The translations under genes and the position numbers were made by a program. The notes under the pieces were generated by a model. The model ran no database searches and was not told where the DNA came from. It was given only the letters and a program-made list of their open reading frames with translations. Shown piece after piece: positions 34,398-61,749 of a stretch of DNA of 64,000 bases. Every line of letters begins with the position of its first letter. Within the stretch, counting starts at the first letter, position 1. Source of the DNA: Halichondria panicea (lineage: Eukaryota; Porifera; Demospongiae; Suberitida; Halichondriidae); NCBI RefSeq assembly GCF_963675165.1, contig NC_087386.1, positions 1,600,931 to 1,664,930 on the forward strand, in the 5' to 3' direction.

Positions 34398-35901
34398 ATG
34401 GCGACCAGATTATATGAACTACTACCATTCTTCTATTTTGTTCAGTTATTATTTGGTCGTAAGTGAAGCATGAATCTGAATAAATAGCTCATAATTGTAG
34501 TCTATAGCCATGATCATTATTTCAACTCCTGCAGAGATCTCATTCATCGGTCCAAGAGAAAAAGTGAAGACACTACCAACAATTCTGGGCCTACAGTCAT
34601 TAGTAATTCTTGATTTCAATTTCCTACCATTGACACTACAACGTAAGGATTATACTTTAACATGGACTCTACCTAATGGGGAAATGGTATCTGAGGAAAA
34701 TCAAAGCCCAAACTCACTGATTATGCTCTTAGAAGGATTAATTGCTCTAAATGCTACTTCAAATGCGCCAGGCACAACTCTAGTGGTTCAAGGCCTGTCC
34801 TACACTGATGCTGGTGTGTACAGATGTAGTGTACAGGACGACCGCAACCCAGGCTCTCCACCAATAGAAGGAACAATAGAGCTAAGGCTGACACGTAAGT
34901 ATGATTGAGTACTAGCAATATACACATCATTAACATACTTATCTCACAGTAACACTAACGGCTATAAACTCAAGCGTGACAATATTGGACAATGCTTCAT
35001 TTGTGGAACTAAGATGTGATATGAGTGACTACATTCAACCTGATGATCAGCTGCAATGGTTCAGAAATGGAGAAATGATAACCTCAGGACAGGCTAGACG
35101 ACAGATCACTTTCATGAATGGAACCGCCAGACTAGGACAGTTTGGAGGTTTTTCACCCCAATCATCAAGAGTTTCGATGCTCACAATTTCAAATCCGGTT
35201 TTAAATGATACTGGAACATACAATTGCCGTGTGATGGATACCACAGAATCTGTTAGTATTGAACTACTTGTTCAATTAAGCTCAGGTGAGAATAATTTAT
35301 ATGCACTATAAAGAGAACAGTGTACATGTAGTTGTTAGGCTTGCTATTCAATTCATTTTCTGTAAACAGCTATACAAACCCTACAACATCGTCAACTAAT
35401 TCAGATACCACACCTGTTACAGAATCGACGTTTCCCCTCCCTGCCCTAATCGGAGGAATAGCTGGATTATTGGCACTTGTTGTCCTCATATTCGTCATAG
35501 TGATCGTGGTGGTTAGTATAAAACATAGGTGTGTGGCAAAGAGAAAAAAGAAACAAAATAATCATACTGATGATCCTACGTACAACTACCCAGATGAGCT
35601 TCCACCTCCACTACCACAACGCAGGACCAATCAGATTCAAGTGACAACCATTTATGAGACAATAATGGACACTACCAACCCAGCATATGGTCTAACACTA
35701 TCAGCAAGTGCAGGCATCTCTGTCGATACCAATATTGCCTATGATATAATTAAAGACATTCTTATTACAGCTACAAATGGAGCTCAGCAACAAGATGAAA
35801 CACCTGCTACCAACCCAACCTTTGAAGATGCAAGAGATTTTGTTATAAATAATTGTCCACGTGTTACTCACCCAACATACAAAGAGGAAGTGCATGTATG
35901 A
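34398..35901 (+). CDS. Ig1: two-Ig receptor with ITIM-like and NPxY tail (intact)
   Basis: Exons 34398-34458, 34535-34894, 34950-35285, 35339-35901; 439 residues. Signal peptide MATRLYELLPFFYFVQLLFG. Domain 1 has W in TWTLPNGEM and an F-strand DAGVYRC, but no Cys in the B strand, so it lacks the usual disulfide. Domain 2 is canonical (VELRC, LQWFR, DTGTYNC). Membrane helix is class A (LLALVVLIFVIVIVVV). Tail: YNYPDELPPPLPQ (SH3-type), IYETIM, NPAYGLTL (NPxY), IAYDII (ITIM-like), HPTYKEEV. The exon 4 acceptor must be 35337-35338, about 35 bp upstream of the site used by Ig2 and Ig3, because the usual TAG is TGT here and the next 20 bases carry two extra bases. This adds residues GLLFNSFSVN before the stalk. 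Confidence 0.85.
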
Positions 35902-36106
35902 TCATAACGATTGAGAACTCGATGAGTGCATGTACCTTATTCAATGTGCTATCTATACTCCATTGAATACATCTACAAGTAGCATGATAATTATATTATT
36001 GAGTCAGAACAACATTGTGCTGATAAAGATTAGGTGCAAATGGTACATGTTGAAATCATAAAAGCATTTGCAGAAACCATAGTTAGAGAGCAGCAGCTGT
36101 GTTGAA

Positions 36107-37440
36107 TTATAAGTCATTAAGATGCTTGCCACAACTCCATGCATCAACTGAAAACAAACAGAGATCATATCAATTTTTATAATGGACTTGTACATCTTAC
36201 CATTGGAAAGCTTCCCTCCTTTGTAGTGGTCACAACAGAGAGACAGGCTGCAGCTGTCTAGCATGATTGCGTTAATGATGTTAGGTACAGCAATCATTAG
36301 TCTGTGAGGGTAGGTCAGATAGTCTATAGTTTGCCCTGTGTGTGTGTGCATGTGGAGGGGGCGGTTAATAAATGTGTGTGTGTGGGAGGGGGCGGTGGAT
36401 GAATGTATGTGTGTGTGGGGGAGGGGGGTGACGTACTGGGTAAGTTTTGACCACAAGTACTGGTGCTTTGTCCGAGGGATACTGGCTTGGCGCACTTTCT
36501 TATTGGATTGTTGGCACAAAGTATACAACTATTTGCATTGCCTCTTTTCACAGGGATGTCATAGTTAACAAAACAGAGATACTGTTTAGGAAGTTTCTAG
36601 AAAGGTGTTGTAGAATCCCGAACACATGCAGTGAGGGTTCTCTCGCCCTGAGGGCTTCTAAACGATCACTAAACAGTGTCAAAGCGTTTTAGGTATTAGC
36701 CAATGAGCTCTTGATTTTTCTTATCTACAATCTGTAATCTATGCGACATGATCAAAATGATCATCTAAATTGGAGAAAACACTACCTCTAGCCAATCAAA
36801 TTGCTGCTTATAGAAAAATCTATGGCATCTTGCAAGAGTGACATCTTAAATATTTCAGTGTTCATAAAACATATAATTATCACATTCATTGAAGATGCAT
36901 GCCCAAATGTGTTGCATTGCGAGTAGGCTAATTGCGAGACATCTCCACATTGACACTCGTGTTCCATGAACCAAACTGAACCATATGACTGCGATCAAAC
37001 AAACTTGTGAACATTGCTCCACTGCTTGAAATAATCATAAAATTCACTTGAACTGGATCCGTGCATTCTATGACTGTAAACTCACAGTGACGTTTTCAAA
37101 GGGGACTGGTGGCGTGCAAGTGAGACCAATGCAATCAATGGCAGTGCACTGGGGGTAGTTTGCCAAGACCCCCTCCAGAGAATCACAATGATCTGATGCG
37201 TGGCTGACTGTGTGTGTGCATGTGTTATACTGGTATCAATGTAATAGTAGCTATTAGCCCGTTTACACCAAGCCTTTAATCCGGATTCGACCCGGATTAG
37301 GTGTCGTGTAAACGGGGCTATTGACAATTAAAGTTTGCCTCTCCATGCAACATGATTATAATTTATGAGCTGCCACAGATCAGTACAGTACACTCACCCA
37401 TTATTTGGCCCAGGAGAAACAGAATTTCAAGGAACATCAT
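36107..37440 (-). pseudogene. Z1: secreted Cys-rich partner gene, damaged copy
   Basis: Exon 1 (signal peptide, start 37440) is open and 122 bp from the Ig2 start. Exon 2 ends at the PFENVT|GTGAGT donor. Downstream, the exon beginning after the CA tract (near 36330) has two extra bases giving an early TAG. In this copy and in Z5 the exons coding LTYPHRL and CSLSLCCDHYKGGKLSNG are joined without the two exon parts and introns that separate them elsewhere. Last exon is about 36107-36147. The whole segment is nearly identical to 51231-52300. Confidence 0.55.
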
Positions 37441-37562
37441 TAATTTTGTGTAGTTAACGATCTTTACATACTTTAGTGATTACTTCGTGTAGTCATGTGC
37501 ATAAAGAAGTGCAGGAAGCATAGCTTTATCTGCAGAACTCATTAGCACTACAGACTATAATT

Positions 37563-39062
37563 ATGGCGACCAGATTATATGAACTACTATCATTCTTCTA
37601 TTTTGTTCAGTTATCATTTGGTAGTAAGTGAAGGCATGAATCTCTTCTAACTGAATAAATAGCTCATAATTGTAGTCTATAGCCATGATCATTATTTCAA
37701 CTCCTGCAGAGATCTCATTCATCGGTCCAGCAGAAACATTGGAGACTCTACCAACAAGTCTGGATGGCCATGGTCTACAGACATTAACAATTCTCGATTT
37801 CAGTATGCTACCAGTGACACTACAACGTGAAAATTATACCTCAACATGGACTCTACCTAATGGGGAAATGGTATCTGAGGAAAATCAAAGCCTAAGTCCA
37901 CTGATTTTTGTCTTCGAAGGACAGATTGTAATAAATACTACAGTTGTACCAAGCAGAACTCTACTGGTTCAAGGCCCGTCCTACACTGATGCTGGTGTGT
38001 ACAGATGTAGTGTACAGGACGACCGCAACCCAGGCTCTCCACCAATAGAAGGAACAATAGAGCTAAGGCTGATATGTGAGTATACTAAGCAACAAACGTT
38101 ATTAACATACTTATCTCTACAGTAACACTAACTGCTATAAACTCAAGCGTGACAATATTGGACAATGCTTCATTTGTGGAACTAAGTTGTGATATGAGCA
38201 ACTACATTCGACCTGACGATCAACTGCAATGATTCAGAGATGGAGAAATGATAACCTCAGGGCAGGCCAGACGACAAATAACTGTCATGAATGGAAACGC
38301 CGATCAAGGACAGTTTGAAGGTCTTTTTACCCAATCATCGAAAGTTTCGGTGCTCACAATCTCAAATCCTGTTTTAAATGATACTGGAACATACAATTGC
38401 CGTGTGATGGGGACCACAGAATCTGTTAGTATTGAACTACTTGTTCAAAGATCAGGTGAGAATAATTTATAAGAGTACAGTGTGGTTGTTAGGCTTGCTA
38501 TTCAATCTATTTTCTAGAAACAGCTACAAACCCTACAACACAAGGAATAACTTCGTCTACACCTGTTACAGAATTAACGTTTCCCCTCCCTGCCCTAATC
38601 GGAGGAATAGCTGGAATATTGGCACTCATTGTCCTCATACTCGTCATAGTAATCGTGGTGGTTAGTATAAAACATAGGTGTGTGGCAAAGAGAAAAAAGA
38701 AAAATAACCATACTGATGATCCTATGTACGACTACCCAGACGAGCTTCCACCACCTCCATTACCACAGCCCAGGACCAATCAGATTCAAGTGATAACCAA
38801 CACAGCCTACAATCTGACTACGTTACATAATGATGTACCGGCCGCGGATGCCACTTATGAGACAACAATGAACACTACCAACCCAGCATATGGTCTAACA
38901 CTATCAGCAAGTGCAGGCATCTCTATTGCAGTTAATTCAGCTCAGCAACAAGATGAAACACCTCCTGCTACCAACCCAACCTTTGAAGATGAAGAGATTT
39001 TCTATTTTCCATGTGTTACTCACCCAACATACAAAGAGGAAGTGTATAATCATAACGATTGA
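37563..39062 (+). pseudogene. Ig2: receptor copy with one nonsense codon
   Basis: Exons 37563-37623, 37710-38075, 38123-38455, 38518-39062. Everything is open except TGA at 38230-38232, where all other copies encode the invariant C-strand Trp of Ig domain 2 (LQW to LQ*). Class A membrane helix (ILALIVLILVIVIVVV). Tail keeps YDYPDELPPPPLPQP, two added tyrosine motifs (AYNLTTL, ATYETTM), NPAYGL and HPTYKEEVY, but lacks the ITIM-like segment. The upstream TATA box is lost. A single base change separates it from an intact gene, so it may be polymorphic or a soluble, truncated one-domain product. Confidence 0.8.
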
Positions 39063-39265
39063 GAACTCGATGAGTGCATGTACCTTATTTAATGTGCTAT
39101 CTATACTCCTTGAATACACCTTCAAGTAGCATGATAATTATTATTGAGTCAGAACAACATTGTGCTGGTAAAGATTAGGTGCAAATGGTACATGTTGAAA
39201 TCATAAAAGCATTTGCAGAAACCATAGTTAGAGAGCAGCAGCTGTGTTGAATTATGAGTCAGTCA

Positions 39266-40887
39266 TTAAGATGTTGCTAACTTAATTTGCAGTCCATCAA
39301 CTGAAAACAAACAGAGATCATCAATTTTAATAATGCACTTGTACATCTTACCATTGAAAAGCTTCCCTCCTTTGTAGAGGTCACAACAGAGAGACAGACT
39401 GCAGCTGTCCTCTACCACACTCACCACACCTGACATCACAGCCCACTGTGTAATGGAGTCCATGTTAACAGGCATGCAAAAATGACAGCTACAACCAAAT
39501 AACATACCTGACAGTTGGTTAATTTATCAATGCTCACTCCACGAACCGAAAGTGTTGTGGCTCCCAATACAAGGGATAGTGCATGCAAACATGCAAATTC
39601 AGGGCGTCCGATTACCAGTTGAATCCTTAGCATGCATGTATACAGTCACACCATGCATGGCAAGATTCAGGGTCTTTCTTGAATTATGTAATCTCTAGCA
39701 TGACAGCGTTAATGATGTTAGGTACAATATCAGCAATCATTGGTCTGTGAGGGTAGGTCAGATAGTCTAGTTTGCCCTGTGTGTGCATGTGTGCATGTGT
39801 AGGGGGCGGTTAATGAATGTGTGTGTGTGGGAGGGGGCGGTGGATGAATGTATATGTGTATGTGTGTGTGGGGGGGGTGACGTACTGGGTAAGTTTTAAC
39901 CACAAGTGCTTGTGCTCTGTCCGAGGGATACTGGCTTGGCGCACTTTCCTATTGGATTGTTGACACAAAGTACACAACTATTTGCATTGCCTCTTTTTAC
40001 AGGTATGTCATAGTTAACAAAACAGAGATACTGTTTAGGAAGTTTCTAGAAAGGTGTTGTAGAATCGCAAACACATACAGTGAGGGTTCTCTCGCCCTGA
40101 GGGCTTCTAAACGGTCACTAAACAGTGTCAAAGCGTTTTAGGTAATAGCAGATGAGCTCTTGATTTTTCTTATCTACAATCTGTAATCTATGCGACATGA
40201 TCAAAATGATCATCTAAATTGGAGAGAACACTACCTCTAGCCAATCAAATTGCTGCTTATAGTAAAATCTATGGCATCTTGCAAGAGTGACATCTTAAAT
40301 ATTTCAGTGTTCATAAAACATATATCACATTCATTGACGATGCATGCCCAAATGTGTTGCATTGCGAGTAGGCTAATTGCGAGACATCTCCACATTGACA
40401 CTCGTGTTCCATGAACCAAACTGAACCACTTGACCGCGATCAAACAAACTTGTGAACATTGCTCCACTGCTTGAGATAATCGTAAAATCACTTGAACTGG
40501 ATCCGTGCATTCTATGACTGTAAACTCACAGTAAAGTTTTCAAAGGGGACTGGTGGTGTGCAAGTGAGACCAATGCAATCAATGGCAGTGCACTGGGGGT
40601 AGTTTGCCAAGACCCCCTCCAGAAAATCACAATGATCTGATGCGTGGCTGACTGTTGTGTGTGTGCATGTGTAATATACTAGTGTCAATGTAATATTAGC
40701 CATTAGCCTGTTTACACCAATCCTTTAATCCGGATTCGACCCGGATTAGGTGTCGTGTAAACGGGGCTATTGACAATTAAAGTTTGCCTCTCCATACAAC
40801 ATGATTATAATTCATGAACTGCCACAGATGTACAGTACACTTACCCATTATTTGGCCCAGGAGAAACAGAATTTCAAGGAACATCAT
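39266..40887 (-). pseudogene. Z2: secreted Cys-rich partner gene, damaged copy
   Basis: Read exons (minus): start 40887 (signal peptide), exon 2 ending PFENFT|GTGAGT near 40527, exon GKLDYLTYP near 39690-39778, exon with VRGVSIDKLTNCQ (39508 to about 39566), exon 39352-39445 (WAVMSG...CSLSLCCDLYKGGKLFNG), last exon 39266-39300 (VDGLQIKLATS, stop). The GKLDYLTYP exon runs into TAA after MLEIT, and the acceptor before ATTLSVRG is TGG instead of TAG. The other exons are open. Start codons of Z2 and Ig3 are 158 bp apart. Confidence 0.6.
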
Positions 40888-41045
40888 TTTCAACCTTTGT
40901 AGAGTCTAATTATCATTTGTGTAGTTAACGATCTTTACTTACTTTAGTGATCTTTGAAATTCTTGTGGTCATGTGCACAAAAATATAAAAAGTACAGGAA
41001 GCATAGCTTTATCTGCAGAACTCATTAGCACTACAGACTATAATT

Positions 41046-42489
41046 ATGGCGACCAGATTATATGAACTACTATCATTCTTCTATTTTGTTCAGTTATCAT
41101 TTGCTCGTAAGTGAAGGCATGAATCTCTTCTCATAGTCTAGCCATGATCATTATTTCAACTCCTGCAGAGATCTCATTCATTGGTCCAAGAGAAAAAGTG
41201 GAGACAATACCAACAAATCAGAATGGCATACAGGCATTAATAATTATCGATTTCAGCATGCTACCAGTGACACTACAACGTGAAAATTATACCTCAACAT
41301 GGACTCTACCTAATGGGGAAATGGTATCTGAGGAAAATCAAAGCCTAAATCCACTGATTTTTGTCTCAGAAGGACCGATTGCAGTAGATGCTACAGTTGT
41401 ACCAACCACAACACTACTGGTTCAAGGTGTGTCCTACACTGATGCTGGTGTGTACAGATGTAGTGTACAGGACGACCGCAACCCAGGCTCTCCACCAATA
41501 GAAGGAACAATAGAGCTAAGGCTGATATGTGAGTATAATTAAGTATACTAAGCAACAAACGTTATTAACATACTTATCTCTACAGTAACACTAACTGCTA
41601 TAAACTCAAGCGTGACAATATTGGACAATGCTTCATTTGTGGAACTAAGATGTGATATGAGTGACTACATTCGACCTGACGATCAACTGCAATGGTTCAG
41701 AGATGGAGAAATGATAACCTCAGGGCAGGCCAGACGACAAATAACTGTCATGAATGGAAACGCCGATCAAGGACAGTTTGGAGGTCTTTCAACCCAATCA
41801 TCGAGAGTTTCGGTGCTCACAATCTCAAATCCTGTTTTAAATGATACTGGAACTTACAATTGCCATGTGATGGGGACCACAGAATCTGTTAGTATTGAAC
41901 TACTTGTTCAAAGATCAGGTGAGAATAATTTATAAGAGTACAGTTTGGTTGTTAGGCTTGCTATTCAATCTATTTTCTAGAAACAGCTACAAACCCTATA
42001 ACACAAGGAATAACTTCGTCTACACCTGTTACAGAATTAACGCTTCCCCTCCCTGCCCTAATCGGAGGAATAGCTGGAATATTGGCACTCGTTGTCCTCA
42101 TACTCGTCATAGTAATCGTGGTGGTTAGTAGATGTGTGGCAAAGAGAAAAAAGAAAAATAAGCATACAGATGATCCTATGTACGACTACCCAGATGAGCT
42201 TCCACCTCCTTCACTACCACAACCCAGGACCAATCAGATTCAAGTGACAACCAATACAGCCTACGATCTGACTACGCTACATAATGATGCACCGGACGTC
42301 ACTTATGAGACAATAATGGACACTACCAACCCAGCATATGGTCTAAGACTATCAGCAAGTGCAGGCATCTCTGTTGATACCAATATTTCTTATGGTATAG
42401 TTAATCCTATTACAGCTAAATCAGCTCAGCAACAAGATGAAACACCTGCTACCAACCCAACCTTTGAAGATGCAAGAGATTTTCTATAA
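41046..42489 (+). CDS. Ig3: two-Ig receptor (intact, shorter tail)
   Basis: Exons 41046-41106, 41169-41528, 41586-41918, 41981-42489; 420 residues with consistent phases. Signal peptide MATRLYELLSFFYFVQLSFA. Domain 1 begins ISFIGPREKVETIPTNQNG, shared with Ig7. Domain 2 is canonical. Class A membrane helix, but the juxtamembrane KH dipeptide seen in Ig1 and Ig2 is missing. Tail: YDYPDELPPPSLPQP, AYDLTTL, VTYETIM, NPAYGLRL, ISYGIV (ITIM-like). It ends early at FEDARDFL; the HPTYKEEV segment lies just past the stop in the other frame, so this end is a recent shortening. Confidence 0.87.
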
Positions 42490-42751
42490 ATAATTGTCCA
42501 CGTGTTACTTACCCAACATACAAAGAGGAAGTGTATAGTCATAACGATTGAGAACTCGATGAGTGCATGTACCTTATTCAATGTGCTATCTATACTCCTT
42601 GAATACACCTATACAAGTAACATGATAATTATTATTGAGTCAGAACAACATTGTGCTGGTAAAGATTAGGTGTAAATACTATTACCGGTACATGTTGAAA
42701 TCATAAAAGCATTTGCAGAAACCATAGTTAGAGAGCAACAGCTGTGTTGAA

Positions 42752-44261
42752 TTATGAGTCATTAAGATGTTGCCAACTTTGCAGTCCATCAACTGAAAAC
42801 GAACAGATATAATTATATCATCAATGTTGATACTGCACTTGTACATCTTACCATGGAAAAGTTTACCTCCTTTGTAGAGGTCACAACAGAGAGACAGACT
42901 GCAGCCGTCTCCTACCACACTCACCAGACTTGACATCACAGCCCACTGTGTAATGGAGTCTGCATGTGTTAACAGGCATGCAAAAATGACAGCTACAACC
43001 ACACACCTGACAGTTGGTAAATGCTCACTCCACGAACATAAATTGTTGTGGCTCCTATACAATTAGGGATAGTGCAAACAAATTCAGGGTGTGCAATTAC
43101 CCCTTAGCATGTGCAGTCACACCTTGGCAAGCAGCATCAGGGTATTTTTTTAATGATGTAGTCTCTAATAGCATGACTGCGTTAATGATGTTAGGTACAA
43201 TATATCAGCAATCATTAGTCTGAGGGTAGGTCAGATAGTCTAGTTTGCCCTGTGTGTGTGTGTGTGTGTGTGGAGGGGGCGGTAAATAAATTTGTGTATG
43301 CGTGGGAGGAGGTGGTGGATGAATGTGTGTGTGTGTGCGTGTGTGTGAGGGGGTGATGTACTTGGTAAGTTTTGACCACAAGTACTGGTGCTCTATCCGA
43401 GGAATACTGGCTTGGCACACTTTCCTATTGGATTGTTGGCACAAAGTACACAACTGAATAGTCTGCCTCTGTTTACAAAAATGTCATAGTTAAATAAATT
43501 TCGATACTGCAATTAACTCACGACCTCCCCAGAACACGTACTGCAGGAAGCTTTAGCAAGGGTCTTGAAGTCGAATGGCAGTCAACGAGCAGGAAGCTTA
43601 CTATATATGTACATAGCTAGCTGGCCTAGTGTAGTATAATTTAATTTATATAGAGTAAGTCGCCGAACTCCGTCAGACATCAAATTGTGTCAGGTAAAAG
43701 GGCGTGTAACGCACAAACAAAACAAGACTGATTCAAACTAATTACACACACTAACAGATGGCCATGGGCCTATTGTCCAGCGAAAACTTGGATAGGCCAA
43801 GTCGCTTCCAGTCCGAGCAGTAATAACTTGAAAAAAACCACCGAATGTTTCGATTTTTGTCATAACGTACCGATCGCCGTTTTTGCCAAACTACACAGCT
43901 AGAGCTAACTGACACAAGCTGAGTACAATCTAGATAGAGTGCAGTACAGAGTGGAGCAATTCCCAGAATCAGGAGACCCTGCAAAGTGGAGCTACACTTG
44001 TTTCTTTGTGAGGGTTGTAAGTGCTGAGTCAGCAATATTCTAGCTATAAGCGCAAAATATATAGCGCTTATAACTATAGGCGCTATATACTAGTATATAC
44101 TAATTACCCCTTAGCATGTATAGTCACACCACCTTGGCAAGCAGCATCAGGGTATTTTTTGAATGATGTAGTCTCTAATAGCATGACTGCGTTAATGATG
44201 TTAGGTACAATATATCAGCAATCATTAGTCTGAGGGTATAGGTCAAATAGTCTAGTTTGCC

Positions 44262-44303
<42 letters not shown>

Positions 44304-44352
44304 AGGGGGCAGTAAATAAATTTGTGCATGTGTGGGAGGAGGCGGTGGGTGA

Positions 44353-44390
<38 letters not shown>

Positions 44391-45598: not shown

Positions 45599-46800
45599 GT
45601 GGCGACCAGATTATATGAACTACTATCATTCTTCTATTTTGTTCAGTTATCATTTGGTCGTAAGTGAAGGCATGAATCTCTTCTAACTGAATAAATAGCT
45701 CATAATTGTAGTCTATAGCCATGATCATTATTTCAACTCCTGCAGAGATCTCATTCATGGGTCCAGCAGAAATATTGAAAACATTACCAACAAGTTTGAG
45801 TGGCCTACAGACATTAACAATTCTTGATTTCAATTTGCTACCAGTGACACTACATGAAGAGAATTATACTGCAACATGGACTCTACCTAATGGGGAAATG
45901 GTATCTATGGAAAATCAAAGTCCAAACAGGAATATATTTGTCTTGAAAGGACGAATTCCTCTAAATGCTACTACAAATGGGCCAAGCACAGCTCTACTGA
46001 TTCAAAGCCTGTCCTACACTGATGCTGGTGTGTACAGATGTAGTGTACAGGACGACCGCAACCCAGGCTCTCCACCAATAGAAGGAACAATAGAGCTAAG
46101 GCTGACATGTGAGTGCAATTGAGTACTAAGCAACAAATGTTATTAACATACTTACTTCACAGTAACACTAACTGCTATAAACTCAAGCGTGACAATATTG
46201 GACAATGCTTCATTTGTGGAACTAAGATGTGATATGAGTGACTACATTCGACCTGATGATCAACTGCAATGGTTCAGAAATGGAGAAATGATAACCCCAG
46301 GACAGGCTAGACGACAGATCACTTTCATGAATGGAACCGCCAGGCTAGGACAGTTTGGAGATCTTTCAATCCAATCATCGAGAGTTTCGGTGCTCACAAT
46401 CTCAAATCCTGTTTTAAGTGATACTGGAGTGTACAATTGCCGTGTGATGGAGACTACAGAATTCGTTGATATTGCACTAATTGTACAGAGTTCAGCCTTA
46501 CTTGGTGGGTAATGGCTACATAGCTTAGCATATTATAGTCTTATTGTTTCATTCATTGCAGGGGGGGTAACAGAGATCTCAGCTACTATTGACTCAACTA
46601 CAGTTCGTCTGCCAACCAATACATCGTCAGAAACCACACCAACTCCAATAGTGACCATTGCACTAGGTGTAACGTTTGGTGGACTAGCACTACTCTATGG
46701 TGTGATTTATATAGTGTGTGCAGCAAAGTGCAAGAATCTGAAGCAGCATCAGCAAAATCACGATCCTTATGACCACTGTCAAGAGGGCGGCCCGTTCTAA
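45599..46800 (+). pseudogene. Ig4: receptor copy without ATG and with LINE-truncated tail
   Basis: Exons 45599-45659, 45746-46108, 46163-46504, 46562-46800 stay in frame, but the expected start codon reads GTG at 45599. Both Ig domains are open. The membrane segment is class B (IVTIALGVTFGGLALLYGVI). The tail is cut after QNHDPYDHC by an inserted LINE fragment that supplies QEGGPF and a stop. The displaced rest of the tail continues at 47031-47289 (IAYGMV, QQQDETPPATNPTFED) but is out of use. A TATA box is still present upstream at 45537. Confidence 0.8.
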
Positions 46801-47030
46801 TTATTAACAGTTGCTTTCTATGGAATGAGTTACCTATAGTAAATTAGTCAATAGTATACCTCCTATAAAGTTTATACTCTTGGACGTTACCTGAACACAA
46901 CCAGTTAGTTACCCTATACCCTTTAACTATATAATGATGTTTGTGTTAGGGAGCACCTCGAGAGGCTAGTGGCCTACTGTGCTTCCCTTTTCTGTGTGTT
47001 GGATAAATCTTATTGATTTATTGATTGATT
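46777..47030 (+). mobile_element. 5'-truncated LINE/SINE 3' end
   Basis: About 250 bp with no counterpart in the other seven copies, inserted in the Ig4 tail exon. It ends in a short TTGATT-type repeat (TTATTGATTTATTGATTGATTG), as many RTE/CR1-like elements do, preceded by GGAGCACCTCGAGAGGCTAG. No coding part remains. Target duplication not clear. Confidence 0.65.
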
Positions 47031-47603
47031 GAGTTTCCACCGCCTCCACTACCACAGCCTGAAACCGATAATGATGATATATTCAAGATAATGATTCACC
47101 TGACCACAATTATGAGACAACAATGCACACTTATGACTACCAACCCAGCATAGCAGGCATCTCTGTTGATACCAATATTGCCTATGGTATGGTTAAAGAC
47201 ATTCGTACTACAGCTACTAATTCAGCTCAGCAACAAGATGAAACACCCCCTGCTACCAACCCAACCTTTGAAGATCAGTGCAATATATGAGTTAGCTTAA
47301 TTATTGTTTATCTGTTTCGCACCCAACATTACAAACGAAAAGTGTTGCATTATTTGTATAGACTATACAATTGAATACCATGCATACCTACGTTACATGG
47401 TTATGACTCAGATCAGAACAACATTACATATTAAAATCATAAACAGAAACTGTAACCGTAGTAACCATAATGAAGAGAGCAACAGTTGTTAACTAGTGTT
47501 CAAGCTGGCGCTGTGCTAATGCCTCTCGCCATGTTTTTGCTTTCGCTCAAAAGTATTAGAGTGTTATCTATAATGAATTTTATATTAAAGTTAGCTTATC
47601 TAT

Positions 47604-48250: not shown

Positions 48251-48285
<35 letters not shown>

Positions 48286-48295: not shown

Positions 48296-48339
48296 CAGCT
48301 TTACCGTATCCCTCGTGCGGCTACGCCTCGAGGCATAAT

Positions 48340-49524: not shown

Positions 49525-51038
49525 ATGGCAACCAGATTATATGAACTATACTACCATTCTTCTATTTTTTTCAGTTATTATTTGGTCGTAAGTGAAGCAT
49601 GAATCTCTTCTAACAGCTCATAGTCTAGCCAGATAATTATCAACTCCTGCAGAGATCTCATTTAGCGGTCCAGGAGAAACATTGGAGACATTACCAACAA
49701 GTCTGAGTTGGCTAGTGCCAATAGTAATTCTTGATTTAAATTTGCTACCAGTGATACTACAACGTGAAAATTATACTTCAACATGGATTCTACCTAATTG
49801 GGAAATGGTATCTATGGAAAATCAAAGCCCAAGCACAAATATATTAGTTCTTAGAAGGACGAATTCCTAAAATGCTACTACAGATGGGCCAAGCACAACT
49901 CTACTGGTTCAAGGCCTGTCCTACACTGATGCTGGTTGTACAGGACGATCGCAACCCAGGCTCTCCACCAATAGAAGGAACAATAGAGCTAAGGCTGACA
50001 CGTAAGTATGATTGAGTACTAGCAATATACACATCATTAACATGCTTATCACTACAGTAACACTAACGGCTATAAACTCAAGCGTGACAATATTGGACAA
50101 TGCTTCATTTGTGGAACTAAGATGTGATATGAGTGACTACATTCGACCTGACGATCAACTGCAATGGTTCAGAGATGGAAAAGTTATAACTTTGGGAGAA
50201 AATAGAAAACAAATCACTTTAATGGATGGAGCCAGACGAGGACAATTTAGAGGTCTTACAACCTAATCATCGAGAGTTTCAATGCTCACAATTTCAAATC
50301 CGGTTTTAAGTGATACTGGAACGTACAATTGCCGTGTCATAGGGACCACAGAATCTGTTGATATTTGAACTACTTGTTCAAAGCTCAGGTGAGAATAATT
50401 TATATGCACTATAAAGAGTACAGTGTAGTTGTTAAGCTTGCTATTCAATTCATTTTCTATAAACAGCTACAAACCCTATACAACATCGTCAACTAATTCA
50501 GATACCACATGCACCTGTTACAGAATCGACATTTCCCCTCCCTACCCTAATCGGAGGAACAACCGGATTATTGGCACTTGTTGTCCTCATACTCGTCATA
50601 GTGATCGTGGTGGTTAGTATAAAACATAGGTGTGTGGTGGTAAAGAGAAAAAAGAAACAAAATAATCAAGTTAAGCTACCACCTCCACTACCACAACCCA
50701 GGACCAATGAGATTCAAGTGACAACCAACACAGCCTACGATCTGGCTAAGTTACATAATGATGCACCGGACGTCACTTATGAGACAATAATGGATACTAC
50801 CAACCCAGCATATGGTCTAACACTATCAGCAAGTGCAGGCCTCTCTGTTGATACCAATATTTCCTATGGTATAGTTAAAGACATTCGTACTACAGCTACA
50901 AATGGAGCTCAGCAACAAGATGAAACACCTCCTGCTACCAACCCAACCGTTGAAAATACAAGAGATTCTGAAGTTGTCTATTGTCCATGTGTTACTCACC
51001 CAACATACAAAGAGGAAGTGTATGATCATAATGATTGA
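49525..51038 (+). pseudogene. Ig5: heavily damaged receptor copy
   Basis: ATG at 49525 is followed by two extra bases in the signal-peptide exon. Exon 2 has frameshifts and has lost the segment with the F-strand Cys (GCTGGTTGTACAGG in place of the usual longer text). Exon 3 has TAA at 50264-50266 and a shift near its end. The membrane/tail exon has a shift near its start but its second part (50571-51038) is open: class A helix, NPAYGLTL, ISYGIV, HPTYKEEVY. The TATA box is changed. Confidence 0.85.
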
Positions 51039-52565: not shown

Positions 52566-52736
52566 TTTCAACCTTTGTAGAGTCTAAGATCTACTTGATT
52601 AATTATCATTTGTGTAGTTAATGATCTTTACTTACTTTAGTGATCTTCGAGATTCTTGTGGTCATGTGCACAAAAATATAAAAAGTGCAGGAAGCATAGC
52701 TTTATCTGCAGAACTCATTAGCACTACAGACTAGAT

Positions 52737-54144
52737 ATGGCGACCAGATTATATGAACTACTACCATTCTTCTATTTTGTTCAGTTATCATTTGGTCGTA
52801 AGTGAAGGCATTAATCTCTTCTATAACTGAATAAATAGCTCATAGTCTAGCCATGATCATTATTTCAACTCCTGCAGAGATCTCATTCATGGGTCCAGCA
52901 GAAACATTGGAGACTCTACCAACAAGTCTGGGTGGTCTACAGGTATTAACAATTATTGATATCAATTTGCTACCATTGACACTACATCAAGAGAATTATA
53001 CCTCAACATGGACTCTACCTAATGGGGAAATGGTATCTATGGAAAATCAAAGTCCAAACACAAATATTTTAGTCATACAAGGACGAATTTCTATAAATGC
53101 TACTACAAATGGGCCGAGCACATCTCTACTGGTTCAAGGCCTGTCCTACACTGATGCTGGTGTGTACAGATGTAGTGTACAGGACGACCGCAACCCAGGC
53201 TCTCCACCAATAGAGGCAACAATAGAGCTACGGCTGACACGTAAGTGTAATTGAGTACTAACAATACACATCATTAACATACTTATCTCACAGTAACACT
53301 AACTGCTATAAACTCAAGTGTGACAGTAATGGACAATGCTTCATTTGCGGAGCTAAGATGTGATATGAGTGACTACATTCGATCTGATGAGCAACTGCAA
53401 TGGTTCAGAGATGGAGAAATGATAACCTCAGGACAGGCTAGACGACATATCACTTTCATAAATGGAAACGCCAATCAAGGACAGTTTGGAGGTCTTTCAA
53501 CCCAATCATCGAGAGTTTCGATGCTCACAATCTCAAATCCTGTTTCAAGTGATACTGGAGTATACAATTGCCATGTGATAGGGACCACAGAAAATGTTGA
53601 TATTGAGCTACTTATTCAAAGCTCAGCTATGCCAATATTGTCCATTGCACTAGGTGGAACAATTGGTGGACTATTACTACTAATTAGTCTTCTTATAGTT
53701 GTGATCATAGTGTGTGTGGTAAAGACGAAGAGTCTGAAGCAGAAGCAACAAAATAATCATACTGATGATCCTATGTACGACTACCCAGATGAGCTTCCAC
53801 AACATCCACTACCACAACCCAGGACCAATGATCATGAGATTCAAATGACAACAGATAATGATTCACCTGACCACAACTATGAGACAACAATGAACACTAC
53901 CAACCCAGCATATGGTCTAACACTATCAGCAAGTGCAGGCATCTCTGTTTATACCAATATTGCCTATGGCATGGTTAATGACATTCCTATTACAGCTACT
54001 AATTCAGCTCAGCAACAAGATGAAACACCTCCTGCTACCAACCCAACCTTTGAAGATGGGATGCAATATGATCATGAGTTGGCTAATTGTCCATCTGTTG
54101 CTCACCCATCATACAAACAGGAAGTGTATGATCCTAGCTGTTGA
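52737..54144 (+). CDS. Ig6: two-Ig receptor, three exons (intact)
   Basis: Exons 52737-52797, 52878-53240, 53294-54144; 424 residues. Ig domain 2 runs without an intron into the membrane segment; the intron present in Ig1-Ig4 and Ig8 is absent. Signal peptide MATRLYELLPFFYFVQLSFG. Class B membrane helix (IGGLLLLISLLIVVIIVCVV) with only a 5-residue stalk. Tail: YDYPDELPQHPLPQP, HNYETTM, NPAYGLTL, IAYGMV (ITIM-like), AHPSYKQEVYDPSC. Starts 171 bp from Z5 on the other strand, with a TATA box at 52677. Confidence 0.9.
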
Positions 54145-54332
54145 GTGCACCTTACGTATTTGTATCTTTACCGTTGAATACCACAACATAATGTATACTC
54201 CTGTTATGACTCAGAACAACATTGTTGTTACAATTAGGTGCAAATACATGTTGAAATCATAAAATCATTTACAGAAATTGTAACCATAGTAAAGAAGTGT
54301 TAAGAGAGTATATAACAGTTGTGTTCAATTAT

Positions 54333-55914
54333 GAGTCACTGGGATGCTTACCAACCTCATTCCATCAATATCAGCTGCAAAACAAACAGACAATAATGAT
54401 GCACATCTCTTACCATTGAAAAGTTTCCCTCCTTTGTAGAGGTCACAACAGAGAGACAGACTGCAGCAATCCCCTACCACACTCACCAGACCTGACATCA
54501 CAGCCCGCTGTGTAATGGAGTTCGTGTTAACAGGCATGACAGCTACAACCAAATAACATACCTGACAGTTGGTAAATTTGTCAATGCTCACTCCACGAAA
54601 GAAATTGTTGTGGCTCCTAATACAAGGGATAGTGCAAACAAATTCAGGGCGTGCGATTACCAGTTGAATCCTTAGCATGCATGTATACAGTCACACCATG
54701 CATAGTAAGATTCAGGGTCTTTCTTGAATTATGTAATCTCTAGCAAGCATGATTGCGTTAATGATGCAATCATTAGTCTGTGAGGGTAGGTCAGATAGTC
54801 TATAGTTAGCCCTGTGTGTGTGTGCATGTGGAGGGAGTGGTTAATGAATGTGTGTGTGTGGAGGGGGTGTTGGATGAATGTATGTGTGTGCATGTGCGAG
54901 GGGGTGACGTACTTGGTAAGTTTTGACCACAAGTACAGGTGCTCTGTCCGAGGGATACTGGCTCGGAACACTTTCCTATTGGATTGTTGGCACAAAGTAC
55001 ACAACTGAAAAGTCTGCCTCTTTTCAAAGATGTCATAGTTAAACAAATTTCGATACTTCAGAAAATCTTGTTTAGGAAGTTTCTAGAAAGGTGTTGTAGA
55101 ATCGCGAACACATACAGTGAGGGCTTCTAAAAACGGTCATTAAACAGTGTCAAAGCGTTTTAGGTAATAGCGAATGAGCTCTTGATTTTTCTTATCTATA
55201 CAATCTGTAATCTATGCGACATGATCAAAATGATCATCTAAATTGGAGAGAACACTACTACCTCTATATAGCCAATCAAATTGCTGCTTATAGTAAAATC
55301 TATGGCATCTTGCAAGAGTGACATCTTAAATATTTCAGCGTTCATAAAACATATATCACATTCATTGAAGATGCATGCCCAAATGTGTTGCATTGCGAGT
55401 AGGCTAATTGCGAGACATCCGCACATTGACACTCGTGTTCCATGAACCAAACTGAACCACTTGACTGCAATCAAACAAACTTGTGAACATTGCTCCACTA
55501 CTTGAGATAATCGTAAAATCACTTGAACTGGATCCGTGCATTCTATGATTGTAAACTCACAGTAAAGTTTTCAAAGGGGACTGGTGGTGTGCAAGTGAGA
55601 CCAATGCAATCAATGGCAGTGCACTGGGGGTAGTTTGCCAAGACTCCCTCCAGAGAATCACAATGATCTGATGGGTGGCTGACTGTGTGTGTGCATGTGT
55701 TATACTGGTGTCAATGTAATATTAGCCATTAGCCCGTTTACACCAATCCTTTAATCCGGATTCGACCAGGATTAGGTGTCGTGTAAACGGGGCTATTGAC
55801 AATTAAAGTTTGCCTCTCCATGCAATATAATTATAATTCATGAACTGCCACAGATCAGTACAGTACACTTACCCATTATTTGGCCCAGGAGAAATAGAAT
55901 TTCAAGGAACATCA
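54333..55914 (-). pseudogene. Z6: secreted Cys-rich partner gene, damaged copy
   Basis: Exons 1-2 are fully open (start near 55914): signal peptide, then VSHPSDHCDSLEGVLANYPQ, CTAIDCIGLTCTPPVPFENFT and the GTGAGT donor. The cysteine exon 54414-54507 (RAVMSG...CCSLSLCCDLYKGGKLFNG) and the last exon are open. The GKLDYLTYP exon begins GGC TAA, and the VRGVS exon lacks one base. Best-preserved 5' half of the family. Confidence 0.62.
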
Positions 55915-56061
55915 TTTTTTTGTAGAGTCTAAGATCTAGATTTGTGTAGTTAACGATCTTTACTTACTTTAGAGATTCTTGTGGTCATGTGCACAAAAAT
56001 ATAAAAAGTGCAGGAAGCATAGCTTTATCTGCAGAACTTATTAGCACTACAGACTATAATT

Positions 56062-57372
56062 ATGGCGACCAGATTATATGAACTACTACCATTCTTCTAT
56101 TTTGTTCAGTTATCATTTGTCGTAAGTGAAGGCATGAATCTCTTCTAAATGAATAAATAGCTCATAATTGTAGTCTATAGCCATGATCATTATTTCAACT
56201 CCTGCAGAGATCTCATTCATTGGTCCAAGAGAAATAGTGGAGACAATACCAAAAAATCAGAATGGCATACAGGCATTAATAATTCTCGATTTCAGTATGC
56301 TACCAGTGACACTACAACGTGAAAATTATACCTCAACATGGACTCTACCTAATGGGGAAATGGTATCTGAGGAAAATCAAAGCCTAAATCCACTGATTTT
56401 TGTCTTTGAAGGACTGATTGAAGTAAATGCTACAGTTGTACCAAGCACAACTCTAGTGGTTTTTGGCCTGTCCTACACTGATGCTGGTGTGTACAGATGT
56501 AGTGTACAGGACGACCGCAACCCAGGCTCTCCACCAATAGAAGGAACAATAGAGCTAAGGCTGATATGTGAGTATACTAAGCAACAAACGTTATTAACAT
56601 ACTTATCACTACAGTAACACTAACTGCTATAAACTCAAGCGTGACAATATTGGACAATGCTTCATTTGTGGAACTAAGATGTGATATGAGTGACTACATT
56701 CGACCTGATGATCAACTGCAATGGTTCAGAAATGGAGAAATGATAACCTCAGGACAGGCTAGACGACAAATCACTTTCATGAATGGAACTGGACAAGGAC
56801 AGCTTGGAGGTTTTTCAACCCAATCATTGAGAATTTCGATGCTCACAATTTCAAATCCTGTTTTAAGTGATACTGGAACGTACAATTGCCGTGTGATGGG
56901 GACCACAGAATCTGTTGACATTGAACTAATTTTACAGATCTCAGCTATGCCAACCAATACATCGCCAGAAACTCCAATATTGACCATTGCACTAGGTGTA
57001 ACGATTGGTGGACTAGTACTACTACTTATTCTCAGTGTGATTAGTACAGTTTGTGTAGCAAAGAGGAAGAGTCTGAAGCAGCACCGTCAGCAAAATAACA
57101 GCACTAATGACCGAACATACGACTACCCAGATGAGCTTCCACCACCTCCACTATCACAGGCTGAAACCAACGATCATGAGATTCAAGATAATGATTCACC
57201 CGACCACAACTATGAGACAACAATGAACACTACCAACCCAGCATACGGTCTAACACTATCAACAAGTGCAGGCATCTCTGTTGATACCAATATTGCCTAT
57301 GGTATAATCACAAACTCAGCTCAGCAAGAATATGAAGTACCTCTAATGGAGCTACCAACCCAACCATTGTGA
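56062..57372 (+). pseudogene. Ig7: receptor copy with one-base loss in the signal exon
   Basis: Exons 56062-56121, 56208-56567, 56615-57372. The signal exon ends TTTGTC|GTAAGT, one base shorter than TTTGGTC in the others, so exon 2 would be read out of frame. All the rest is open: both Ig domains, an Ig6-like exon fusion into the membrane part, class B helix (IGGLVLLLILSVISTVCVA), tail with YDYPDELPPPPLSQ, HNYETTM, NPAYGLTL and IAYGII (ITIM-like), ending MELPTQPL. An in-frame ATG in the preceding intron (56183) could start an intron-retaining form without a signal peptide. TATA box present at 56000. Confidence 0.75.
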
Positions 57373-57639
57373 ACATACAATTGTCCATCTGAACTATATT
57401 GAGACATTAAATTAATCCGAGTGTGTATACCATATTTTTACTGAATACCTACATGCACTACATATGTAATATATATATACTAGTCTTGTACGGTACTACT
57501 TGTATAAGCAAAGATTAGGATATAATTATACTGGTAAAACATTTTAATTAGTGGAAGTATGCTGCATGTGGAATCATAAAATTAGTTTCCAGAAACCATA
57601 CTGAGATTAAGTGCATGGAGCAACAGCTGTGTTCAATTA

Positions 57640-60090
57640 GGAGTCACTGAGATGCTTGCCAATTAACCTTGCATTTCATCAACTGCAAAACAAACAGAGA
57701 GTGATAATGCACACTATGTATCTTACCATTGAAAAGCTTCCCTCCTTTAATTTGTAGAGGTCACAATAGAGAGACAGACTGCAGCTGTCCCCTACCACAC
57801 TCAGTTCGTACTCGTGTTAACAGGCAATGCAAACAATTACAGCTTCATCCACATAGCTACCTTACAGTATCAATGCTCACTCCATGCACATAAATTGTTG
57901 TGGCTCCTAATATAAGGGATAGTTTAAACAAATTCAGCGTGTGCAATTAATTACCAGTTGAATCTTTAGTATGTACAGTCACACCTTGGCAAGCAGCATC
58001 AGGGTATTTCTTGAACGATGTAATCTCTAATAGCATGACTGCGTTAATGATGTTAGGTGACACCGGGGGTAGGTCAGACAGTCTAGTTTGCCCTGTGTGT
58101 GTGTGTGCATGTGGAGGAGGTGGTGAATGAATGTGTGTGCGTGCGTGGGAGGGGTGGTGAATGAATGTGTGTGCGTGGGAGGGGTGGTGAATGAATGTGT
58201 GTGCGTGCGTGGGAGGGGTGGTGAATGAATGTGTGTGCGTGGGAGGGGTGGTGAATGAATGTGTGTACGTGGGAGGGATGGTGAATGAATGTGTGTGCGT
58301 GGGAGGGATGGTGAATAAATGTGTGTGCGTGGGAGGGGTGGTGAATGAATGTGTGTGCGTGGGAGGGGTGGTGAATGTGTGTGCGTGGGAGGGGTGGTGA
58401 ATGAATGTGTGTGCGTGGGAGGGGTGGTGAATGAATGTGTGTGCGTGGGAGGGGGTGGTGAATGAATGTGTGTGCATGGGAGGGGTGGTGAATGTGTGTG
58501 CGTGGGAGGGGTGGTGAATGAATGTGTGTGCGTGGGAGGGGTGGTGAATGAATGTGTGTGCGTGGGAGGGGGTGGTGAATGAATGTGTGTGCGTGGGAGG
58601 GGTGGTGAATGAATATGTGTGCGTGGGAGGGGTGGTGAATGAATGTGTGTGCGTGGGAGGGGTGGTGAATGAATGTGTGTGCGTGGGAGGGGTGGTGAAT
58701 GAATGTGTGTGCGTGGGAGGGGGTGGTGAATGAATGTGTGTGCGTGGGAGGGGGTGGTGAATGAATGTGTGTGCGTGGGAGGGGGTGGTGAATGAATGTG
58801 TGTGCGTGGGAGGGGTGGTGAATGAATGTGTGTGCGTGGGAGGGGTGGTGAATGAATGTGTGTGCGTGGGAGGGGTGGTGAATGAATGTGTGTGCGTGGG
58901 AGGGGTGGTGAATGAATGTGTGTGTGTGGGAGGGGTGGTGAATGAATGTGTGCATGTGTGTGCATGTGTGAGGGGGTGACGCACTTGGTCAGTTTTGACA
59001 ACAAGTACAGGTGCTCTGTCTGAGGGATACTGACTTGGTGTTGGAAAAAGTTGCAAATTAAATTGTGGGCATAAAGTACATAACTATAAAGTCTATTTGC
59101 ATTAATTGCCTCTTTTTACTTCTTAGGGATGTCATAGTTAAATCAATTTCGATACTTTATTGAACAGAGAATCTTAGTTTTGTAAGTTTATAGAAGCCCA
59201 AAGGTGTTGTAGAATCCCTATAGTGAGGGTTCTCTCGCCTTGAGGGCTTCTAAACGGTCACTAAACAGTGTCAAAGTGTTTTAGGTAATAGCGAATGAGC
59301 TCTAGCCAATCAGATTTGACTGTTTTTATATCTATATCTATATACAATCTGTAATCTATGCTACATGATCATCTAAGTGAAGTAATGATCTTCATGATGA
59401 TGATGAAGTTGGAGAAAACACTACCTCAAATGAGCCAATCAGATTGCTGCTTATAGCATTCCATGTAAAATATATATATGGCATATCACATGCAATGTCA
59501 TACAACATTCCTATATATATGACATCATGTATGATATTATATAATTGACACAGTAAAAGAGAATGTTGTTACACAAAAGCGTGCAACGTTGTAATATTTG
59601 ATGTGATCACATTCCAGGTTTTACTCAACGTAAATATTATGCTTCTGAGATGCTATGGATACTCATTACGTCTTTAAGGGAAAATTGATTGTGAGGATGG
59701 GACTGTAGCTCATAGGCTATACCTAGTTGTGCATGTACAATAGACAGCAATTCCCAATTCAACAAAGCTGAACTCGTGTGGCCTGTAGGGACCACTTAAC
59801 TGCAATCAAACATACTTGTATACTGCTCCCACTGCTGAGGTAATCGTAAAATTGGATCTGTGCATTTTATGAGACTGTAAACTTTCCTAGTTGCTGGCTC
59901 CACTGAACTACTCCACCCACTGCAAGTGTGTGTGCATGAGTTCAGTGGAGCCAGTATAGTATGTAGCCATTGAAAACATAAACTTTGGTTATACTGTATA
60001 TAGAGTCCTCTCCATGCATGCAACATACATGTACAGCCACAGATCAGTACAGTACACTTACCAAATACCTAAGAGAATTCTCATTAGCAT
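57640..60090 (-). pseudogene. Z7: eroded partner copy with minisatellite
   Basis: A short signal-like exon (MLMRILLGI, near 60058-60090) lies 110 bp from the Ig8 start. Exon 2 is reduced to a fragment at about 59792-59900. The cysteine exon (57726 on), VRGVS-like exon and LTYP-like exon are recognisable but altered. The intron before the LTYP exon has expanded into the 30-bp minisatellite. Between them, 59560-59790 matches the right flank of the array (63000-63240). Confidence 0.5.
58100..58970. repeat. 30-bp minisatellite, about 29 units
   Basis: Consensus unit GAATGAATGTGTGTGCGTGG plus GAGGGGTGGT, with variants of 29 and 31 bp and a few 22-26-bp units. The other Z copies have only one or two units at the same place in the intron (for example 36355-36420, 51470-51540), so the array grew from a pre-existing dimer. 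Because 30 is divisible by three, long reading frames (HTHSFTTPPT repeats) appear in several frames; they are not taken as genes. Confidence 0.95.
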
Positions 60091-60199
60091 TTGTGTAGTT
60101 AACGATCTTTACTAGTTTGTGTGATGCGCGGTGTGTCCCCTTATATTTATAGCAGGAAACATAGATTGATCTGCAGAACTCTTTTAGCACAGACTAGAG

Positions 60200-61749
60200 A
60201 TGGCAACCAAAATATATCAACTGCTACCATTCTTCTATTTTCTGCAGCTATCATTTGGTGGTAAGTGAACTTATTTATTAGCTAGTCTTATTATTTCAAC
60301 TCGTTATAATTATCTCCCTGCAGAGATCTCATTCATTGGTCCAAGACATCAATTGATAACATTACCAAGAAGTCTGAGTGACCTACATAGTTTAACAATT
60401 CTCTATTTTAATTTGGTGCCAGGGACACAACAACAAGATTATACCTCAACATGGACTCTACCTAATGGGGAAATGGTATCTGCTGGAAATTTAATTCCAA
60501 ACTCACGAGTTCTTGCCTCAGATAGACCACTTGTAATAAATGCTACAGTTGTACCAAGCACAACTCTACTGGTTCAAGGCCTGTCCTACACTGATGCTGG
60601 TGTGTACAGATGTAGTGTACAGGACGACCGCAACCCAGGCTCTCCACCAATAGAAGGAACAATAGAGCTACGGCTGACAGGTAAGTATAATTAACTAGCA
60701 AAACATATACTTATCTCTACTTACTATGTAGTAATACTAACGGCTATAAACTCAAGTGTGACAATATTGGACAATACTTCATTTGCGGAGCTAAGATGTG
60801 ATATGAGCAACTACATCCGACCTGACGATCAACTGCAATGGTTCAAAGATGGAGAAATGATAACCTCAGGACAGGCTAGACGACAAATCACTTTCACCAA
60901 TGGAACTGGACAAGGACAATTTGGAGGTATTGTACCCCAATCATCGAGAGTTTCGATGCTCACAATCTCAAATCCTGTTTTAAGTGATACTGGAACGTAC
61001 AATTGCCGTGTCATAGGGACCACAGAATCTGTTGACATTGAACTACTTGTTAACAGCTCAAGCTTAATTGGTAAGTTATGGCTACCAAAACCATTATTAT
61101 AATAAATATAATGTATGTGTTTTCGACTTCATCTCAAACCGTTTTTTTAGCTACAACAATGACTACTGAAGTTCCTATGCCAAATGCAACATCAGAAAAA
61201 ACCACACAAACTGATGCAACGTCAGAAACCACACAAACTAATGCACCACCAGAAACCACACAAACTAATGCATCACCAGAAACCACACAAACTCCAATAT
61301 TGTCCATTGCACTAGGTGGAACAATTGGTGGACTAGTACTACTAATTCTTCTTCTTATAGTTGTAATTATAGTGTGTGTGGCAAAGAGGAAGAGTCTGAA
61401 GCAGAAGCAGCAAATTGATGATCCTACGTACGACTTCCCACATGATCTTCGACCACCTCCATTGCCACAGTCCAGGACCAATCAGATTCAAGTGACAACC
61501 AACACAGCCTACGCTTCGGCTACGTCACTTAATGATGCACCGGACGCCATTTATGAGACATTAATGGACACTACCAACCCAGCATATGGTATCACACTAT
61601 CAGCAAGTGCAGACATCTCTGTTGATACCAACAGTGCATATGGTATGGTTAAAGACATTCCTATTACAGCTACTAATGCAGCTCAGCAACAAGATGAAAC
61701 ACCTCCTGCTACCAACCCAACCTTTGAACAATTAAGCAAGAGATTTTGA
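60200..61749 (+). CDS. Ig8: two-Ig receptor with Thr-rich stalk (intact)
   Basis: Exons 60200-60260, 60324-60680, 60732-61070, 61151-61749; 451 residues. Most divergent signal peptide (MATKIYQLLPFFYFLQLSFG) and domain 1. Domain 2 is canonical. The stalk has four short repeats of the type ETTQTNA.P, likely O-glycosylated. Class B helix (IGGLVLLILLLIVVIIVCVA). Tail: YDFPHDLRPPPLPQ, NTAYASA, AIYETLM (I-Y-E-T-L), NPAYGITL, SAYGMV in place of the ITIM-like IAYGMV, ending FEQLSKRF. It keeps the intron before the membrane exon that Ig6 and Ig7 lack. Confidence 0.9.

Follow-up and report, generated by a model that had tools for sequence, protein, structure and literature searches.

What kind of receptors are encoded by the eight immunoglobulin (Ig) units that stand in a row on contig C10 of the sponge Halichondria panicea, and to which known family do they belong? 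The stretch analyzed, referred to here as the window, comprises 64,000 nucleotides (C10:1600931-1664930) of the 131-Mb genome; array positions are given in whole-window numbering, and positions in kb with the prefix C10 follow the contig. A first-pass annotation of this DNA had likened the array to the vertebrate KIR/LILR and Hydractinia Alr loci and proposed an immune or allorecognition role. Our comparisons point to another relationship: by its sequence the array is very probably kin to a cluster of receptor tyrosine kinases (RTKs) on the same contig, and this kinship is better founded than that with KIR/LILR or Alr. We give a probability of about 0.6 to the reading that the array represents a kinase-free branch of the Ig-bearing RTKs of sponges, with a docking tail that would tune a recognition or adhesion signal.

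The array and its kinase sister

Self-comparison of the window gave eight head-to-tail receptor units on the plus strand (34398-61749), each with a signal exon, Ig domain 1 (D1), Ig domain 2 (D2), a membrane segment and a tail. Pfam Ig models scored above their cut-offs in all three proteins scanned (Ig3, Ig6 and Ig8 of the eight), with D2 as the best stretch in most rows. When the genome was searched with D1-D2, 21 matches were obtained, all on C10, and these represented the array and one further full copy at C10:1728.6-1729.4 kb. A search with the tail gave 15 matches, again all on C10. The further copy, RTKf, lies 66 kb beyond Ig8 and outside the window; it has the same two Ig domains, followed by a kinase that replaces the tail. 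Its membrane exon runs on as a 585-amino-acid (aa) frame encoding a kinase with G-loop, HRD and DFG (Pfam kinase, 3e-75), and the best matches of this kinase in the Protein Data Bank (PDB) are DDR1/DDR2 and then Trk. The predicted protein is 834 or 818 aa long, and its short-stalk model is letter for letter RefSeq P0011, named "class II receptor tyrosine kinase-like." Seven kinase receptors were found at C10:1701-1734 kb, with RTKb lacking DFG.

The surroundings of RTKf were mapped by tblastn over 174 kb, which uncovered three ectodomain classes, each in kinase and kinase-free forms. Class I, the array type, has eight kinase-free members and one kinase (RTKf). Class II includes the kinase RTKc, a docking-tail gene (C10:1675.9-1678.5 kb), a short-tail gene (C10:1666.5-1668.6 kb) and a damaged copy (C10:1679.7-1681.3 kb). 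Class III includes the kinases RTKa and RTKb (the latter with a frame change in the second Ig domain), a minus-strand fragment near C10:1586 kb and a kinase-free receptor within the window (13832-15979, plus strand). The partial model of this last gene has an unnamed N-terminal domain, two Ig domains, a membrane segment and a short tail with NEAYG. Its DNA is 88% identical over 1.9 kb to the kinase receptor RTKa (C10:1699.1-1702.6 kb), and the likeness stops just short of the membrane, at window base 15688.

The class II docking-tail gene is 86% identical to RTKc up to contig base 1678195 and thereafter 87% identical to the tail of Ig1. RTKf and Ig3 are alike (86% and 92%) across the exons of D1 and D2 and on to the end of the membrane segment, the likeness ending just inside the membrane. 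These two sets of breakpoints therefore place a junction just inside the membrane in two classes. The likeness of RTKf to Ig6 (90%) ends at the end of D2, and that of the 1666-kb class II gene to RTKc at the end of its second Ig domain. Because RTKf shares the Ig domains of the array, and a class II ectodomain carries the docking tail of the array, we read the locus, at the level of sequence, as a single cluster in which receptors with and without a kinase have interchangeable halves.

Two further observations were made on C10. Eight more tyrosine-kinase matches follow one another at C10:1914147-1940221 and may form another such cluster. On the minus strand at C10:1724754-1726587, head-to-head with RTKf, lies a divergent membrane gene with two Ig domains (L042/L043); its D2 is 43% identical to that of the array.

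Copy state, tails and probable exchange between copies

The shared plan of eight copies that had been proposed was borne out by the self-comparison, the exon models and the RefSeq identity of two copies. The Ig6 model is identical over all 424 residues to the uncharacterized protein LOC135343301 isoform X1 (P0001), and the short-stalk form of Ig3 is letter for letter LOC135343303 isoform X2 (P0003). As these two models and that of the kinase sister equal RefSeq proteins, RefSeq agrees with the modeled splice sites. Three copies are fully open: Ig3 (41046-42489), Ig6 (52737-54144, 424 aa) and Ig8 (60200-61749, 451 aa, with repeats in the stalk). In Ig6 one exon encodes D2, the membrane segment and the tail, and in Ig7 a single exon likewise carries both D2 and the tail. 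Ig1 (34398-35901), the fourth copy that had been called intact, deserves that name only through its short-stalk acceptor. Its exons are 34398-34458, 34535-34894, 34950-35285 and 35423 (or 35405)-35901, giving 411 aa (or 417). With the acceptor 35370 a frameshift leads to a stop before the membrane segment (278 aa), and with 35423 or 35405 the frame is open. RefSeq uses an acceptor of the 35423 type, which gives the short stalk, for an isoform of Ig3 as well as for RTKf; since this acceptor leaves the frame open, Ig1 is neither a merely secreted form nor a dead gene.

Lesions could be located in all four copies that had been described as damaged. Ig2 (37563-39062) has the usual plan with a single TGA replacing a conserved Trp codon of D2. 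Ig4 (45599-47290) starts with GTG and has a broken tail, with the frame ending at 46797 and a remnant at 47078-47287. Ig5 (49525-51038) has multiple frameshifts and stops, and its open tail exon lacks the YxYPDELPPP piece. In Ig7 (56062-57372), exon 1 has lost a single base at its end, so that in the regular model the frame breaks at the junction of exons 1 and 2, the later exons being open. The membrane segment is of two kinds, one in Ig1, 2, 3 and 5 and the other in Ig4, 6, 7 and 8. D1 has a single cysteine in all eight sequences compared (seven array copies without Ig5, and the kinase sister), and therefore lacks the usual disulfide; D2 has two. In a distant relative, P0010, D1 has two cysteines, and the loss may thus be confined to the branch of the array and RTKf.

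The first-pass annotation had ascribed three tyrosine or proline motifs to the tails of most copies and had spoken of SH3-type motifs. NPAYGL is indeed exact in 6/8 copies (absent from Ig4 and from Ig8, which has NPAYGI), as is [IV]xYxx[IVL] (absent from Ig2 and Ig8, the Ig4 instance lying on the remnant), but YxYPDELPPP is exact in only four (Ig1, 2, 3 and 7). The class II SH3 consensus PxxPx[RK] was found only in Ig1 among the seven array tails scanned (the array without Ig4), and an SH3 site was dropped as a common feature. The best-kept parts of the tail are YETxMxTTNPAYG and a proline run. The former is kept in all eight aligned tails, that is, seven array tails without Ig4 and that of the class II docking-tail gene, and a YDYPDELPPPPLPQPRTN-like run is retained in most of them.

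Relaxed hexamers resembling the immunoreceptor tyrosine-based inhibitory motif (ITIM) were present in six of the seven array tails scanned, at most two per tail, with shuffle P values of 0.025 to 0.258 among tails with a match. The strict ITIM form was likewise seen in six of these seven tails; Ig2 lacks [SIVL]xYxx[ILV], and so does the class II gene that shares the docking tail. Hexamers of the relaxed form also lie ahead of the kinase domain in all seven cluster kinases (one or two each), together with NPxY in four and PxxPx[RK] in five; these pre-kinase stretches (283-802 residues) include outer parts, are longer than the tails and were scanned unshuffled, and the densities are not comparable. 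Density aside, the motifs are therefore not special to the kinase-free genes. On the side of possible partners, the genome encodes an SHP-type phosphatase at C3:8404.2-8406.3 kb, with two SH2 exons and with phosphatase exons that include one for HCSAGIGRTG. Its second SH2 piece matched PTPN11 at 5e-57, and PTB domains gave four genome matches. The description of the tails as inhibitory in type fits their tyrosines and the SHP-type gene but is weak, given the lack of the hexamers in Ig2, their presence on all seven kinases and NPAYG as the best-kept site. Tyrosine-phosphatase matches in the genome number 162; among the matches listed most are on contig C4, many of them close together, an expansion of these phosphatases on C4 in H. 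panicea.

Selection was assessed by ratios of nonsynonymous to synonymous substitution (dN/dS, Nei-Gojobori) between copies only, with bootstrap intervals; trees and approximately unbiased (AU) tests were computed with IQ-TREE. Ig5 was left out of the D1 and D2 codon work and of the dN/dS for the YxYPDELPPP stretch, Ig4 out of the tail alignments, and the stop of Ig2 was skipped or masked in the counts. D1 residues 1-90 gave a dN/dS of 0.98 (0.69-1.49), close to 1 and not above it, and positive selection was not found between copies. D2 gave 0.52 (0.33-0.81), an interval that overlaps that of D1 residues 1-90. Within the tail, the values (point estimates computed without intervals) were 0.51 for the YETxMxTTNPAYG stretch, 0.36 for the YDYPDELPPPPLPQPRTN-like stretch, 0.81 for the whole tail and 1.20 behind NPAYG.

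The D1 of Ig6 is the array D1 closest to that of the kinase sister. The D1 tree groups RTKf with Ig6 and the D2 tree groups it with Ig8 (branch support was not computed), and the D1 and D2 data each rejected the tree of the other (AU p of 4.6e-7 and 2.9e-6). The simplest reading of this conflict is exon exchange, and it points to exchange among the array copies and between them and the kinase gene. Toward its end, D1 contains a block of 72 nt that showed zero differences across eight sequences (seven array copies without Ig5, and RTKf), with dS in windows between D1 codons 10 and 90 at 0.12-0.49; in the D1 exon of Ig1 (34535-34894, plus strand, one Cys) the block lies in the last third. This identity could come from gene conversion or from constraint on the DNA itself. 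Judged by where it sits, the block would encode strands F and G with the loop between them, the counterpart of the third antibody loop, so this part of D1 would not vary.

Several database proteins were considered as alleles and set aside. P0002 and P0005 are encoded in the window itself, the former being the Ig6 exon and the latter Ig7 bar the first residue (GTG start). P0004 and P0006-P0009 are array-like, come from other contigs of unstated origin with best matches of 62-88%, and were not used as polymorphism. P0009 is a relative of Ig8 (190/198 ungapped residues equal, 18 gap positions) whose species is unstated, and it was likewise kept out.

Minus-strand genes and repeats

The Ig units are accompanied by sequence of a second, minus-strand family, whose genes have outer exons, a membrane segment and a short tail. 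One such membrane-protein gene (31845-34229, exon joints approximate) lies head-to-head with Ig1, the divergent signal exons being separated by 168 bp (34230-34397). Exons of a second gene of this family lie at 29027-31506, where the signal exon was not located. Pfam gave no significant match for the family in the one of these two genes that was scanned, and the genome beyond the C10 cluster gave one weak match. Divergent pairs of signal exons, with the Ig gene on the right and the minus-strand gene on the left, were seen in seven of the eight units, with gaps of 122-186 bp; for Ig8 an upstream minus-strand signal exon with an ATG was not found. The gap is probably a shared promoter. Within the array, the family is present only as its first two exons, mostly broken by stops or shifts, which excludes a working minus-strand partner gene in each unit and suggests that the duplicated unit carried part of the neighboring gene along.

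Other repeated sequence was also noted. Behind most Ig copies there is a minus-strand repeat with CSLSLCCDLYKGGKLFNGK (about 36.2, 39.3-39.8, 42.8-43.2, 44.1, 51.3, 54.4, 57.7 and 62.1-62.5 kb of the window), for which a mixed query gave 15 matches, all in the array. Between Ig7 and Ig8 (58100-58952) a 30-bp unit is repeated about 28 times as a minisatellite, and short arrays of a similar unit lie near 36.4, 39.8, 51.5 and 54.9 kb. A 982-aa frame on the minus strand at 10565-13510 resembles the start of a retroelement gag-pol. An Rfam scan gave no matches.

Possible function of the array

When D1-D2 was compared with all PDB chains, only two matches fell below 1e-10: 8qpx, "Receptor tyrosine kinase (Fragment)" (E 3e-15), and 8ovq, "Cell recognition molecule, long form" (4e-14). 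We take these to be the RTK of Geodia cydonium and SAM-L, a sponge adhesion molecule. Both have two Ig domains like the array, the alignment being limited to the second part of D1 and D2. The two are nearly alike in the aligned stretch, and kinase and kinase-free forms of one ectodomain thus seem to be present there too, as they are here in RTKf and the array. By sequence the array belongs to this sponge Ig-RTK/SAM-type family, if the Geodia identities are taken as above. The tandem arrangement, the exchange of tails and the docking tail are seen in H. panicea and may set the array apart from the solved proteins, whose comparison covered the Ig part. An Ig-like domain in a Geodia RTK is cited in PMC12018476, and an adhesion molecule of Geodia that bears Ig-like domains appears in PMC11999971.

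Comparison with other systems gave partial likenesses. DDR1/DDR2 resemble the kinase domain of the sister, and four of the seven cluster kinases, the sister not among them, have NPxY before the kinase, where DDR1 has an NPAY site. Unlike the DDRs, the array copies are kinase-free, with an Ig ectodomain and no discoidin domain by Pfam in the pieces scanned. The KIR/LILR receptors of vertebrates are tandem paired receptors in which one ectodomain family is joined to different inner halves, with pseudogenes, and the array is like them in each of these respects; here, however, the other form has an intrinsic kinase and not an ITAM-adaptor partner (ITAM, immunoreceptor tyrosine-based activation motif), and ITIM-like sites are not in all copies. 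According to PMC12065747, the tails of Botryllus co-receptors bear ITIM and hemITAM motifs, the stretch that links their Ig part to the membrane varies by splicing, and allorecognition candidates of Botryllus and Hydractinia bear ITIM-type motifs. The Botryllus fester co-receptors and Hydractinia Alr share clustering and tyrosine tail motifs with the array, and the splicing recalls its stalk isoforms; this likeness comes from descriptions and not from sequence, and in H. panicea the alternative inner half is a kinase. As far as we have seen, what appears new is the tandem array, the close neighborhood of forms with and without a kinase, the exchange of a tail between classes and the signs of exon exchange with a kinase. 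A search of titles and the starts of abstracts, in which most subscription journals were outside the search, found no publication on this C10 cluster among the papers listed.

If the array is a kinase-free branch of sponge Ig-RTKs, then both types of receptor may bind the same or related ligands on neighboring cells or matrix. A ligand clustering both would allow the kinase to phosphorylate the docking-tail tyrosines (YETxMxTTNPAYG and the C-terminal [IS]xYxx[VI]), and these phosphotyrosines could serve as binding sites for proteins with PTB or SH2 domains, among them perhaps the SHP phosphatase of the sponge. Where the two were not co-clustered, the kinase-free receptor would compete for ligand. 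The net effect would be that the array tunes the recognition or adhesion signal, and recurrent duplication, loss and exon exchange would vary the outer part of D1. That the docking tail damps the signal is a tentative suggestion, which we hold to be somewhat doubtful.

A number of findings weigh against this reading. A single kinase sister faces eight array copies, four of them broken, and the signal exon of the sister is different, so its promoter and cell type may differ. The pre-kinase part of RTKf lacks NPxY. The docking motifs are short (NPxY shuffle P of 0.026 to 0.084 per tail over eight tails). Pfam found no discoidin domain in three array proteins, RTKf and two ectodomain pieces of the other classes, although a divergent domain could escape it. 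The class II docking-tail gene changes frame within its N-terminal domain and is possibly a pseudogene, the chimera still being present in the DNA. The switch point is not uniform, since Ig6, the class III gene and the class II gene at 1666 kb all have theirs outside the membrane. The last two points leave the kinship with the kinases untouched.

The array could also consist of plain SAM-type adhesion molecules with tails tied to the cytoskeleton through the proline-rich and NPxY sites, without any inhibitory or recognition role. The second-best solved match (8ovq) and the preservation of just these tail parts agree with this, but it leaves no evident need for eight copies, and the linkage and the halves held in common with kinases suggest signaling; we consider it rather unlikely. 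Inhibitory self/non-self receptors, with polymorphic ligands outside and ITIM-SHP signaling inside, would fit the tandem and partly pseudogenized array, the [IV]xYxx[IVL] motif in six of its eight copies, the SHP gene, the motifs on the Botryllus and Hydractinia candidates (PMC12065747) and a variation in pattern-recognition receptor expression between H. panicea individuals (PMC8242945). The same hexamers on all seven neighboring kinases and their absence from Ig2, a variable D1 part evolving at a ratio near 1, and a D1 end (presumed strands F and G and loop) that is identical among the copies compared make such receptors unlikely, and we judge an allorecognition role for the array equally unlikely. 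Finally, the locus may be a decaying array in which unequal crossing-over produced passenger copies and just one or two genes still function. The four broken copies and the minus-strand exons, as remnants carried in the units, are what decay would leave; three or four copies that are open, including two with RefSeq isoforms, and the dN/dS of D2 are not, and we regard this as quite improbable.

A bolder version of the kinase-free-branch reading is a paired-receptor complex in which germline recombination would fuse a changing set of Ig ectodomains with one of two inner halves, an activating DDR-type kinase or a damping, kinase-free docking tail, so as to read self and non-self where cells touch. 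We think this improbable; if it were true, the C10 cluster would be the sponge counterpart of fuhc, Alr and KIR, with an intrinsic kinase as the activator. The mechanisms of invertebrate allorecognition are described as a mystery, with candidate proteins not conserved across models, in PMC12065747. The receptors for self/non-self recognition in sponges are unsettled, and this locus supplies named genes and mapped junctions, along with a testable hypothesis in two parts: a shared ectodomain, joined to a kinase or to a docking tail. It also offers a route by which kinase-free partner receptors may arise, the inner half being replaced inside a single kinase cluster.

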